A stretch of DNA of 64,000 nucleotides from Vulcanococcus sp. Clear-D1 (GTDB lineage Bacteria > Cyanobacteriota > Cyanobacteriia > PCC-6307 > Cyanobiaceae), in contig NZ_JACVZV010000037.1 in assembly GCF_014654725.1 (NCBI RefSeq), positions 62,001-126,000 on the forward strand. Direction: 5' to 3'. The notes beneath the pieces were generated by a model. It made no database searches. It was not told the DNA's origin and worked only from the letters and a program-made list of their open reading frames with translations. Numbering within the stretch: position 1 is the stretch's first letter; every line of letters starts with the position of its first letter. Positions 4,876 to 18,742 of this stretch are shown here, piece after piece. Both the position numbers and the translations under genes were made by a program.

Positions 4876-6838
4876 TTCGCCCGCTGAGGTCAGCCACGAG
4901 CCTGCGGCGGTTGAGCCGCGGGTTCTGCCGTTTCAGTGGAGCCTGCTCGCCTGGGCAGCCCTGGTGGGTGCGCTCACCGGGCTGGCTGTGGTGGGCTTCC
5001 ACTACCTGCTGGGCTTCATCAACAACTTTTTCTATGGCCCGGTGGTGGAAGGCCTGGTTGGTCTGTTCACCTCTGCTCCGCCTGAACCGCCACCGCTGCC
5101 GGAACCTGCACCCGCAGCTGGCACACCCCTCGGTGCCCTGCTGCAGATCGGCCTTGGCGGCCTTGCTTTTCTGCCACCGCCCCCCCCACCGCCGGAGCCG
5201 ATCCCGCTGCCGGGTGATCCGTTGCCGCTGTGGCTGTCGGCCTGGCCCGTGGTGCTGGTGCCGCTGTTGGGTGGTCTGGCGGTGGGTGCTCTGCGCCAGT
5301 GGGGCCGCGACCTGGGCCCGAGCCTGCCGAGCTTGATGGCCATGGCTGATGGCAGCGTGCAGCCCACGCCCAAGCTTCCCTTCCTGCGCCTGATCACCGC
5401 CTCCCTCAGCCTGGGGAGCGGCGCGTCGCTTGGCCCGGAGGGCCCGAGCGTGGAGAGCGGCGGCAACATCGGCCTGTGGGTGGCGGGGAAGGGTGGGCTG
5501 TCGCCCGATTCCCAGAAGGCCCTGGTGGCTGCTGGTGTGGCGGCGGGTCTGGCCGCAGGTTTCAAGGCGCCGATCGCAGGTCTGTTCTTTGCCTTTGAGG
5601 GCAGCTACAGCACGATCCCCGGTCGCCCCAGCGTGCGGGCCGTGCTGGTGGCCGCCGTGGCCTCCTCGCTGGTGACCCAGCTGTCGCTGGGGGATGAGCC
5701 GATCTTCCGCCTGCCGGCCTATGAGGTGCGCTCTCCCTTGGAGCTGCCGCTCTATCTGGGGCTTGGTCTGGTGGCCAGCGGCATGTCGCTGGCTTTGCTC
5801 AACCTGTTTGCGCTCGGGCGCAGCGAGCCCGTGCAGCGTCAGCTTGGGCGGTTGCCCACCTGTTTGGTCACCGGCCTCGGCGGTCTGGCGGTGGGGTTGA
5901 TGGCCCTTGGCTTCCCGCAGGTGTTGGGCGTGGGCTACGACACCATCGGTGCCCTGCTGGGTCGTGATGGCGGCATTGCCCTGGTGAGCCTCTTGGGGTT
6001 GCTGGCAGTGAAGCTGCTGGCCACCGGCCTGAGCAGCGCCACGGGCTTTGTGGGTGGTGGTTTTGCCCCGTCGCTGTTTCTCGGTGCTGTGCTCGGCAAT
6101 GTGTATGGCCAGTTGCTGGGAGAGGGCGGCCTGCAGTTGCCGGTGGCCGAGCCCCCCGCCTACGCAATGGTGGGTATGGCGGCGGTTTTGGCCGGCAGCG
6201 CCCGCGCCCCGCTGACAGCCCTGCTGCTCCTGTTTGAACTCACCCACGACATCCGGATTGTGCTGCCGCTGATGGCGGCCGCCGGTTTGAGTGCACTGCT
6301 GGTGGAGCGCTGGCACGGTATGGCTGATCCGGGCCTAGTGGGCCCGGATGTGCAGGAGGAGCAGCGCCGCGGGCGGCTGGCCTCCATCGCTGTAATAGAC
6401 GCGCTCGAGCCGGAATCTCCCCTGGTGTTGGCGGCCTCCACCACGGCGGAGGTTGCCCTGCAGCAGCTGCTGGCTGCCCATGGCCATTGCCTGGTGGTGG
6501 AGGAGGAGGGCTGGGTGCTGGCACTGGTCACCCTGGAGGATCTGCAGCGGCCGATCTCCGCTGGCCTGGCCCAGCAACCACTGCGCGACTGCCGCCGCTC
6601 CGAGTTGATCTGGCTCTCGATGGACGCCAATCTCTCCCAGCTCGAGGATCAGCTCCAGCCCAATGGCCTGCGCCAGGTGCCGGTGTTTCGCCTGGAGGAT
6701 CAGGCCCTGCCCAAGTTGCCCGTTGGCATCCCGAGCTCCGGTTTACCGCTGGTGGCCCTGCAAGGCCTCGCCAGCCGCGATGGCATGGCCCGTGCCCTGG
6801 CTAGGGCGGCGGCGCTACCGTATGAAAAAGCCCCCTGA
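4823..6838 (+). CDS. ClC-family chloride channel/antiporter with C-terminal CBS-like domain
   Basis: A ClC-type anion transporter. The selectivity elements are clear: [14 protein letters not shown] (the glutamate of GxEGP is the gating residue that marks H+-coupled exchangers) and [12 protein letters not shown]. Beyond the membrane part, residues reading [11 protein letters not shown] onward lead into a CBS-like regulatory region ([14 protein letters not shown]). Odd feature: between the first helix and the core is a very proline-rich loop of about 50 residues, including a run of seven prolines near 5180. The start is uncertain: ATG 4751, GTG 4823 and CTG 4865 are in frame and all overlap the end of hemC; GTG 4823 is my choice. 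The gene end overlaps a terminator that serves ppa on the other strand. Confidence 0.88.
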
Positions 6839-16036: not shown

Positions 16037-16399
16037 TCAGCGCGGCGTGCCGTTGTAGCCAACGTTGGTGATGGTGCGGCCGTCTGGAGAGACGGTGACT
16101 TCGGTTTCGGTGGTGGGCCGCAGGCCTTCCTGCTGCCAGCCGGGGGCACCGCCGAGGAAGCGGAAGGTGTAGCCGGGGTTGTTGGTCTGAATCAGGCAGG
16201 AGCCGCCGCCGTCGCTGGTGTTGAACATGCAGGCGGCAGGGCGATACACCGACAGACCACCGTTGTTATTCACCGCCCAGTTGCGGGCCAAGTTCACAGC
16301 TCGAACATTGGAATCACTCACCTGAGCCAGTGCGGCACCTGCGGAGAGTGCGGCAGTGGCAGCTGCCATGAGAGTGAAACGCAGAGGTTTGATGGCCAT
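16037..16399 (-). CDS. Small secreted protein of unknown function
   Basis: 120 residues. The ATG at 16399 gives a clean signal peptide (MAIKPLRFTLMAAATAALSA, cleavage after ALA-Q). The mature part is about 95 residues with two cysteines (RPAACMFNT and GSCLIQTN) that could form one disulfide, and a C-terminal VTVSPDGRTITNVGYNG that looks like beta strands. I do not recognise the family. It is divergent from the Gly/Asn/Trp-rich gene at 16516, leaving about 115 bases for promoters of both, and is one of four exported proteins in a 2.7 kb block. Confidence 0.7.
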   Translation of the reverse strand: MAIKPLRFTLMAAATAALSAGAALAQVSDSNVRAVNLARNWAVNNNGGLSVYRPAACMFNTSDGGGSCLIQTNNPGYTFRFLGGAPGWQQEGLRPTTETEVTVSPDGRTITNVGYNGTPR

Positions 16400-16515
16400 C
16401 ACGGCATCGTTCACGCTTGTCCACTGTGGCGATCTGCTGCAGCTTCTGCAGCGCCCATGACGCACCCCGTTACGCAACTGCTACCACTACACGCGTGATC
16501 AGCTATTCACCCGTG

Positions 16516-17535
16516 ATGGGAATGTCCCCGATCCGCCGGCGTGGCCTTCGTGCCTTGGCTCCGGCCTTAGTGCTCGCTGTTTTGCTTCCGGTAGCTGGCC
16601 TGGCGCGTGATGGTGGCGGTGGCCATGGTGGAGGAGGCCACGGAGGTGGCGGTGGTTTTCACGGTGGCGGCGGGCATGGCGGTGGTGATCGCGTCCGCGC
16701 GGGTGGCGGCTACCACCATGAGTACGGCGGTGGGTCGCGCACGCCTGCTCTCCACCACAACATCAGCCGCGACGACTACAACCGCGCCACCAACGGTGGC
16801 CGCGATCGCTTTGATGCCAACCGCCTCGGTTGGGGTAATCGCAACTGGAATCAGGGTGATTGGCGTGGTGATAACTGGCGTGGCGGCAATTGGGGTGGCA
16901 ATAACTGGCGCGGGGATAACGGGGGCTACAACAACTGGGGTAACCGCTGGAATGGCGGTTGGAACAACAACTGGAACAACGGTGGTTTCTGGGGCGATCG
17001 CCAGTGGAGCTATGGCTGGTACAACTGGCAGCCCAACACTTGGAGCTGGTGGGGGAACAACTCAGCCGCCTGGGGCCTGGCGGGTCTGGCTACAGGTGCT
17101 GCCATCACGGATCTCGTGAACGACGCCAGCGATCAGCAATCGCCGGTGATTGACGTTCCCGATAGCAACTATCAGCTCAACTACGGCACGGTGGACGCCG
17201 TTGGTAACAGCGGTGCCAATTTCAGTTATTCCGTGGCGAGCAGCTCACCGGAGCAGGGTGGTGCCAATTCCTCGGGGGCCAGCAGTCCGCCGGTGCAGGG
17301 CGGCGCCAACTGCCAGGAGGGTCTCCTGGATGGCCAGGTTCCCTCCACCGCTGCTCAGGCGCAGCTGCTTAACGCGGCTTGCCAGGTGGCTTACGGCCCC
17401 GATCCCCAGGGCAGCCCTCTGCCAAGGCTGTGGTCGCCGTCGCCGGCGGTGCGGGAGTGGCTGATTCTTCTGCTGGGAGGGGGCATTGGTTTTGGTGGTT
17501 ATGCCCTGTTCAAGCACACGCGCAAAGCCACCTGA
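16516..17535 (+). CDS. Secreted Gly/His/Asn/Trp-rich protein with C-terminal membrane anchor
   Basis: 339 residues, unknown family. Layout: signal peptide (RALAPALVLAVLLPVAGLA), a Gly/His block of about 40 residues, then roughly 80 residues dominated by Asn, Trp and Gly (WRGDNWRGGNWGGNNW), a small hydrophobic AAWGLAGLATGAAITDLV glycine-zipper-like segment, a VPDSNYQLNYGTVDAVG strand region, a Cys-containing module (GANCQEGLLDGQVPSTAAQ, QLLNAACQVAYG) and a C-terminal membrane helix LILLLGGGIGFGGYALF with basic tail. Start ATG 16516; GTG 16495 and ATG 16522 are alternatives. The next gene is a shorter paralogue lacking the anchor. Repeat-like codons make the region low complexity, but both paralogues keep frame, so I take them as real. 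Confidence 0.78.
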   Translation: MGMSPIRRRGLRALAPALVLAVLLPVAGLARDGGGGHGGGGHGGGGGFHGGGGHGGGDRVRAGGGYHHEYGGGSRTPALHHNISRDDYNRATNGGRDRFDANRLGWGNRNWNQGDWRGDNWRGGNWGGNNWRGDNGGYNNWGNRWNGGWNNNWNNGGFWGDRQWSYGWYNWQPNTWSWWGNNSAAWGLAGLATGAAITDLVNDASDQQSPVIDVPDSNYQLNYGTVDAVGNSGANFSYSVASSSPEQGGANSSGASSPPVQGGANCQEGLLDGQVPSTAAQAQLLNAACQVAYGPDPQGSPLPRLWSPSPAVREWLILLLGGGIGFGGYALFKHTRKAT

Positions 17536-17651
17536 AGCGCATCCTCTGAGCCAAGGCTGTTGTGTGACAGTCCACTGCAGCAATCTCCCCGATCTGCATC
17601 ACTGGTGTCCACGATTGGGGGGTTGTTGTGCTGGTTCCACAGCTCGATTCG

Positions 17652-18377
17652 ATGCATCGATCTTCACGCCTGTCTGCTGCGGTTCTTTCGGCCCTATTGC
17701 TTGGCACCTTGGCCTCGCCACTGGTGGCCGAGGCCCGTGGCGGCGGTGGTGGCCGCGGGGGCGGTGGCTTTCATGGCGGCGGGGGCCGCGACTGGGGTGG
17801 TGCTGGTCGTGATGGCCGCAGTTGGGGTGGTGGCGACTACCACTTCCAGAACAACGATGTGGATCGCGGTTACAAGGGCGATCACCCCATGTATGGACCT
17901 GGCACCCGCGACAGCTTCAACAACGATCGGGTGAATGTCAACAACAACTTCTATCGCCGTGATTACAACGGCTGGAACAACAACTGGCGCAATGGCGGCT
18001 ATTGGAACAACCGCCCCTGGAACCACGGCTGGTACAACAATGGCTGGGGTGGCTGGGGCTGGTGGGGCGCCAACGCTGCAGCCTGGGGTGTCGCTGGCCT
18101 GGCCACCGGAGCTGCCATCACCGGTCTGGTGGATGCCGCTTCCAACAACAGTTCACCGGTGATCGTGGTGCCCAATACCAGCTACGAGCTCAACTACGGC
18201 TCCGTGGAAGGGGTGGGCAGCTATGGCGTCAGCTTCAACTACAACGTAGATGGCAGCAGCCTGATGGGTGCAGCCAACTGCCAGCAGGGTCTGCTCAACG
18301 GTCAGGTGCCAGGCACCGCCGATCAAGCCCAGTTGCTCAACGCTGTGTGCCAGGTGGCTTACGGCTCAGGCAGCTGA
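17652..18377 (+). CDS. Secreted Gly/Asn/Trp-rich protein, paralogue of the preceding gene
   Basis: 241 residues beginning at ATG 17652 with a signal peptide (MHRSSRLSAAVLSALLLGTL, cleavage near VAEA). A short Gly-rich block (RGGGGGRGGGGFHGGGG) and an Asn/Trp/Gly block (WNNNWRNGGYWNNRPW) lead to AAWGVAGLATGAAITGLV, VPNTSYELNYGSVEGVG and the two-cysteine module GAANCQQGLLNGQVPGTADQ with LLNAVCQVAYG. These last parts match the upstream gene almost block for block, so the two arose by tandem duplication. Unlike it, this copy stops after the Cys module, with no membrane anchor, and may be released or bound to the anchored partner. Function unknown. Confidence 0.8.
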   Translation: MHRSSRLSAAVLSALLLGTLASPLVAEARGGGGGRGGGGFHGGGGRDWGGAGRDGRSWGGGDYHFQNNDVDRGYKGDHPMYGPGTRDSFNNDRVNVNNNFYRRDYNGWNNNWRNGGYWNNRPWNHGWYNNGWGGWGWWGANAAAWGVAGLATGAAITGLVDAASNNSSPVIVVPNTSYELNYGSVEGVGSYGVSFNYNVDGSSLMGAANCQQGLLNGQVPGTADQAQLLNAVCQVAYGSGS

Positions 18378-18742
18378 GGTTGTTGGCTAGCTGATCCCCC
18401 TGCTAGCGGCAGGGGGACGGCACCGCTGGATTGACCACACAGCCGTGTGGGACACCCATCCTTGCCGTAAATGGCGTCGTTGGGCGATAGGCAGCCGAGC
18501 TTGTTCTTCGCGGCTACCTCCGACGGCGCGAGGCGCATGGGTTGCACGTTGCCAACACCCACGATCGCCGGGCAGCTGCTGGCAGGCAGGATTGGCTGCC
18601 CGGGTTTGAACACCGCTGGCGTTCCACCGCCTCGAATCAATTGCAGCGCGGGATCGTTGACCGCGGGTTGAGCCTTCACGCTGCTGCCGAGCAACAGCAG
18701 CGGCAGTGCCAGTTTGCCCAGGTGTTGGGATGCGATCGCCAT
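18359..18742 (-). CDS. Small secreted Cys-containing protein of unknown function
   Basis: 127 residues from ATG 18742. A signal peptide (LGKLALPLLLLGSSVKA) is followed by a proline-rich mature part with four cysteines (ASSCPAIVGV, KLGCLSPND, GKDGCPTRLCGQ), enough for two disulfides. No family recognised. Its last 19 bases overlap the 3' end of the convergent Gly/Asn/Trp-rich gene, and a perfect hairpin (TCCCCCTGC/GCAGGGGGA, about 18393-18415) lies within its 3' coding part, possibly ending transcription from the other side. It adds to the run of exported proteins here. Confidence 0.65.
   Translation of the reverse strand: MAIASQHLGKLALPLLLLGSSVKAQPAVNDPALQLIRGGGTPAVFKPGQPILPASSCPAIVGVGNVQPMRLAPSEVAAKNKLGCLSPNDAIYGKDGCPTRLCGQSSGAVPLPLAGGSASQQPQLPEP

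Follow-up and report, generated by a model that had tools for sequence, protein, structure and literature searches.

Two neighbouring genes on the + strand of the window, the 64,000-nt stretch of the Vulcanococcus sp. Clear-D1 genome analysed here, encode exported proteins that carry a common module and belong to a real, conserved family without a name in Pfam, NCBIfam or the literature that we found. One protein ends in a predicted membrane helix and the other does not, and we read them as a pair of cell-envelope binding proteins, one tethered and one released, that together may build an adhesive or structural layer, a reading to which we assign a probability of roughly 0.4. What is new is a confidently modelled two-Cys domain for which protein E of Haemophilus influenzae is the best solved structure, according to the predicted models of both proteins. 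The surface proteins of freshwater picocyanobacteria are so far little characterised, and this abundant family, unnamed in Pfam and NCBIfam, offers a natural matched pair of anchored and free forms as well as a domain that is open to structure solution and tests.

Two related exported proteins and their predicted fold

The anchored form is a protein of 339 aa with an ATG start (16516–17535, + strand), in which a signal peptide is followed by a Gly/Asn/Trp-rich stretch, Trp and zipper helices, a two-Cys domain and a transmembrane (TM) tail, and the free form, of 241 aa and also with an ATG start (17652–18377, + strand), has the same layout up to the end of the module. Two small exported proteins encoded on the − strand flank them, a divergent neighbour of 120 aa with two Cys (16037–16399) and a convergent neighbour of 127 aa with four Cys (18359–18742). 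All four genes had been noted in a preliminary description of this DNA, and all lie at the positions given there; read by eye, each protein starts with an apparent signal peptide that lacks a lipobox Cys. The free gene converges with the four-Cys gene so closely that their 3' ends share 19 nt (18359–18377), and similarly tight ends occur in several relatives. The preliminary description had taken the four genes as one block. Among 29 named loci on the clpB side (a count that excludes L113, where the clpB match of 34% is spurious), a gene of the 18359 type is present in 28 and one of the 16037 type in 5, so the convergent neighbour is a constant companion and the divergent one no fixed part of the block. 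A promoter and terminator scan returned signals no more numerous than in shuffles.

BLASTP aligns the anchored and the free protein with 80 of 140 residues identical (57%, E 2e-33) over a span from NGG[FY]W to CQVAYG, which, with a signal peptide on each, bears out the claim of two exported + strand genes with a common module. This module consists of a Trp-rich segment, an Ala/Gly zipper helix and a C-terminal two-Cys domain. Ahead of it, after the signal sequence, both proteins have a Gly-rich start and then a stretch of about 30% Gly, 16% Asn and 10% Trp; in the anchored form this low-complexity stretch (16609–17040, + strand; G 31%, N 16%, W 11%) is modelled as disordered, and 15-nt repeats lie within it at 16828–16943. 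The Trp-rich turn and zipper helices follow at 17041–17133 in the anchored form (model helices 176–185 and 193–206) and at 18057–18146 in the free form (model helices 136–145 and 152–165), and the two-Cys, protein E-like domain occupies 17146–17394 (residues 211–293; Cys266 and Cys289) and 18159–18362 (residues 170–237; Cys210 and Cys233), respectively, all on the + strand. Both module Cys are kept in 134 of 134 aligned rows, at a spacing of 22–23 residues. In a loop of the domain of the anchored protein, the alignment places an insertion of about 14 residues ahead of the first Cys (17237–17278, + strand, limits approximate), and most relatives are without it. A C-terminal membrane anchor had been claimed for the first protein only, and the predictions agree, with a TM helix at residues 310–337 (17443–17526, + strand) and a basic tail behind it in the first protein and a stop 3 residues past the module in the second.

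Purifying selection acts on all four genes. With genomes that are represented twice counted once (L008/L088, L007/L089, L009/L090, L010/L107 and L011/L098), dN/dS against close relatives is about 0.04–0.16 for both + strand genes, and because of these values neither copy is decaying; the preliminary description had raised the possibility that one of them is a pseudogene, and neither is. For the flanking genes dN/dS is mostly 0.08–0.3, with a value of 0.58 in a single distant comparison of the 18359 gene over 61 residues.

AlphaFold2 gives a confident fold only for the C-terminal domain of both proteins (pLDDT about 90–95). In the free-form model, strands at 170–172, 178–188, 192–199 and 202–209 are followed by a helix at 223–237, and the anchored-form model has the same order of strands and helix plus the TM helix, at pLDDT of about 73–75. 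Outside the C-terminal domain, most of both models falls below pLDDT 50, and the low-complexity part and the zipper are poorly modelled. Protein E is an adhesin of H. influenzae that binds host matrix proteins. It is placed first by VIA-align for the free form (3zh6, Z 6.3, rmsd 3.1, 77 residues aligned), where it makes up all four entries that exceed Z 3 (6.3, 5.8, 5.5 and 4.7) and the next entry has Z 3.0. For the anchored form the list has five entries, every one of them protein E, at Z 5.8 to 4.0 (3zh5, Z 5.8, rmsd 4.5, 89 residues aligned); Z values below 8 can reflect a common arrangement, and the matches here are all to one protein. Foldseek alone returned no significant match (best E 0.73). 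The parts of the protein E literature that we consulted describe a disulfide, Cys81–Cys130, that ties the main C-terminal helix to the end of strand 4 (PMC6652776, PMC11278874) and a sheet of six antiparallel strands (PMC11278874). In both window models one Cys directly follows the fourth strand and the other lies inside the C-terminal helix, which are the positions of the protein E disulfide, and these predicted positions suggest a disulfide between the module Cys as well. The two-Cys domain thus probably folds like protein E, by which we mean a likeness of predicted fold and not membership of Adhesin_E.

Distribution of the anchored and free forms

The source genome has four copies of the module, the window pair and two on other contigs. 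More widely, the module is found in 16 of 25 genomes of the genus, 103 of 251 genomes of the family Cyanobiaceae (with up to seven matches per genome), 19 of 386 genomes of a phylum sample and 26 of 388 genomes of a class sample that was searched with a longer profile (four of the 26 weak), these samples overlapping one another. A scan across 84,980 species gave 144 candidate stretches, of which 139 were confirmed; 80 were kept, 78 of them cyanobacterial and 2 from Thiocapsa. The cyanobacterial holders are Vulcanococcus, Cyanobium, Synechococcus, Aphanothece and their kin, mostly freshwater and brackish picocyanobacteria, and a holder outside the family was also found (G604, with two copies). 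Thiocapsa roseopersicina and Thiocapsa sp. KS1 each have a free-type copy that is 65–67% identical to the window module (L127 and L128, both at 5001–5339), and because these copies nest among the free copies of cyanobacteria, beside two Cyanobium strains (support 99/87), horizontal transfer from a picocyanobacterium to this purple sulfur bacterium is likely. A mobile or phage origin of the family was dropped after searches of plasmids with the free protein, of phages with the anchored module and of viral contigs with the module alignment returned no match.

In a tree built from 134 distinct modules, two sides can be told apart, branches A and B, on few alignment columns and with a bootstrap that had not settled. 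Branch A, which contains the window pair, is mainly found between clpB and cytochrome c6. In branch B, an exported four-Cys protein is encoded directly upstream in 38 of 39 named loci (e.g., L123, 3994–4401) as against 0 of 41 branch A loci by tblastn, and this protein is a likely functional partner of the branch B module gene; Pfam returned nothing significant for it or for the flanking genes. The copy on contig 24 of the source genome has a similar four-Cys protein upstream, as seen by eye (L003). Where branch A has the Asn/Trp stretch, branch B has Arg/Asn repeats such as NRNVNRDV, and long Arg/Asn/Val tetrapeptide-like repeats were seen in the low-complexity part of several members (L136, L138, L146 and L158). 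Cytochrome c6 was considered as an ancient neighbour and dropped: a c6-like gene lies beside a module gene in G295 (L186), and inspection by eye of two G604 regions (L187 and L188) showed none. Clusters of open reading frames that by eye resemble sulfatases and formylglycine-generating enzymes lie near several module genes (L096, L097, L122, L147, L149, L152–L154 and L166).

Across the named loci, most proteins stop 1–5 residues past the module and a subset extends for 42–62 residues, an extension in which a linker leads into a hydrophobic helix and the end is usually basic. The 19 tailed rows group in a single clade (support 100/99); with one change on this tree, the C-terminal tail arose once. 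Matches to a tail profile occur in 27 of 251 family genomes, 18 of them full (E 5e-20 or better) and 9 weak or partial. Two or more module genes are present in each of the 18 full-tail genomes, compared with 64 of the 103 module-bearing genomes overall, a result with a chance of 6.6e-5 if the relatedness of the genomes is ignored. At the clpB side, the 25 named loci with clpB in view have both forms in 8 cases, the free form only in 16 and the anchored form only in 1. In four assemblies the anchored gene is elsewhere, beside a gene read as queA, and the free copy is at the clpB locus (L100/L112, L102/L131, L105/L135 and L115/L151, free copy first). Because the forms co-occur in 18 of 18 genomes while only 8 of 25 loci have both, and because unlinked pairs exist, the presence of both forms in one genome is a firmer association than their adjacency. 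An adjacent pair is not obligatory.

Possible roles of the pair

If the two proteins are a pair of envelope binding proteins, both would be exported through Sec. The Gly/Asn/Trp-rich low-complexity part could then be a flexible stalk; the Ala/Gly helix, with Trp on its flanks, could pack against its own copies or against a membrane; and the C-terminal domain, tethered by its disulfide and folded like protein E, would be the binding head. The C-terminal TM helix would keep the first protein in the plasma membrane, and the second would be released to the periplasm, the outer membrane or the cell surface. The anchored form would probably dock or recruit the free form, which would give freshwater picocyanobacteria a layer with an adhesive or structural role. 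The stalk and docking roles are guesses because the low-complexity part and the zipper are poorly modelled, and surface exposure and adhesion, like docking, are putative. Support for a surface-binding role comes from the protein E-like fold, the Cys positions, the single tail clade, the co-occurrence in 18 of 18 genomes and the purifying selection. Against it stand Z values below 8 for what is always the one protein, the Foldseek result, the absence of a sequence link to Adhesin_E, the four main strands in place of six, and the free form without an adjacent anchored form in 16 of 25 clpB-side loci. The preliminary description had proposed an anchored and a free form of one adhesive protein, and the division into anchored and free is supported by the tail clade, the predicted TM helix and the 18 of 18 genomes, while for the word adhesive the support is the modelled likeness to protein E. 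A fuller version, in which anchored and released proteins with a protein E-like head form a two-part surface system, a coat that adheres and is assembled through the zippers, with a head derived from a cyanobacteria-wide exported domain and a free form passed on to a purple sulfur bacterium, seems to us doubtful.

The main rival to binding is a structural role in the envelope that involves no outside ligand, in which the Trp/Ala/Gly helices would sit in the outer membrane or on peptidoglycan and the anchored form would link them to the plasma membrane. We consider this a real possibility, though a less probable one. The zipper helix is close to TM hydrophobicity (19-residue means of 1.2 and 1.5) and is flanked by Trp; elsewhere the layout of signal peptide, Gly-rich part, repeats and zipper ends in DUF6515 (L183 and L184); and an SH3-like domain, a type often tied to cell walls, is attached to relatives of the two-Cys domain. 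On the other hand, a zipper helix of the anchored form that crossed the plasma membrane would leave the basic tail outside, against the positive-inside rule, and would put the two-Cys domain in the cytoplasm.

It is unlikely that the free form works in cell-to-cell recognition or in regulation, either as a soluble signal or in competition with the anchored form. A head domain common to both forms, and a further module gene in all 18 anchored genomes, would suit such an arrangement, but hardly any of the anchored protein is cytoplasmic, which leaves it no means of inward signalling, and the neighbours (clpB, cytochrome c6, an epimerase and hemE) point to no pathway. We also find it improbable that the tail is a processed sorting signal of the PEP-CTERM or GlyGly-CTERM type, such that both forms would in the end be released: while 17 aligned tails have a linker, a Gly-rich hydrophobic stretch and a polar or basic end, no exosortase was found in the source genome, its best rhombosortase match scores 42.4 bits against a curated cut-off of 84, and three anchored proteins have no NCBIfam match. 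Redundant duplication with no separate role for each copy, which the tandem arrangement and the identity over the module might suggest, is equally improbable given a separate tail clade that spans several genera, the constraint on both copies and the persistence of both forms where they are unlinked.

Relatives and comparison with known systems

Pfam and NCBIfam scans of the four window proteins and searches of PDB sequences with two profiles returned nothing significant. With Pfam PF16747 (Adhesin_E), 0 of 18 family members score over the curated cut-off and the window pair gives none, the best match in the source genome (E 0.25) lying at a place other than this locus. The preliminary description had allowed that the shared module might be a known family, and it matches none among Pfam, NCBIfam, PDB sequences and PF16747. 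A search of literature listings on the family, on Adhesin_E/PF16747 and on protein E with cyanobacteria found no naming of these proteins. In direct profile comparison with 20 cyanobacterial Adhesin_E members (20 of 30 loci were used), the family, represented by 52 domains once near-copies had been removed from the 127 that were obtained from 134 rows, has a probability of about 2% (2.2) and a score of 15.4 against a shuffled maximum of 13.3.

The likeness to protein E lies in the predicted antiparallel sheet with its C-terminal helix, in the placement of the Cys and in export. The differences are that the window domain has four strands of three or more residues as against six in protein E, is shorter and is without the last hairpin, that its Cys are 22–23 residues apart as against 49, and that the window proteins have no lipobox and carry the domain behind a low-complexity stretch and a zipper helix. 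Should the head be truly related to protein E, the adhesin fold of a human pathogen would be extended to an exported family of cyanobacteria, and the Thiocapsa copies would represent its transfer between two kinds of phototroph.

A nearer relative by profile emerged from one weak match (L182), which led to an exported two-Cys domain in 56 of 291 cyanobacterial class genomes. Compared with a profile of this domain (from which 3 of 30 sequences were left out, the extraction pattern having missed them), the window family gives a probability of 93.5, E 2.3e-7 and a score of 38.3, against a maximum of 21.2 in 50 shuffled controls; the match covers the whole domain with the Cys aligned (L182 and L222–L251), and by this profile evidence the window two-Cys domain is related to the exported two-Cys domain of other cyanobacteria. 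Against the Adhesin_E profile, the L182-like domain scores a borderline 19.0, with a shuffled maximum of 18.2, and Pfam has no family for the two-Cys part of these proteins (L222–L251). Unlike the window proteins, the L182-like proteins shown have neither the Gly/Asn/Trp stretch nor the zipper, and many continue into the SH3-like domain (an SH3_3 match of E 0.0007 that does not reach the Pfam cut-off); the source genome has 0 matches to them.

The front part of the window proteins, in turn, resembles that of cyanobacterial DUF6515 (PF20125) proteins, two of which (L183 and L184) have a signal peptide, a Gly-rich start, polar repeats and a Trp/Gly zipper as in the window proteins. Their C-terminal domain is DUF6515 (E 1.2e-30 and 1e-12), whereas the window proteins are without PF20125. 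Because this layout also precedes DUF6515 in other cyanobacteria, the family appears to be a variant on exported envelope proteins, one in which the layout leads into a two-Cys domain that probably folds like protein E.
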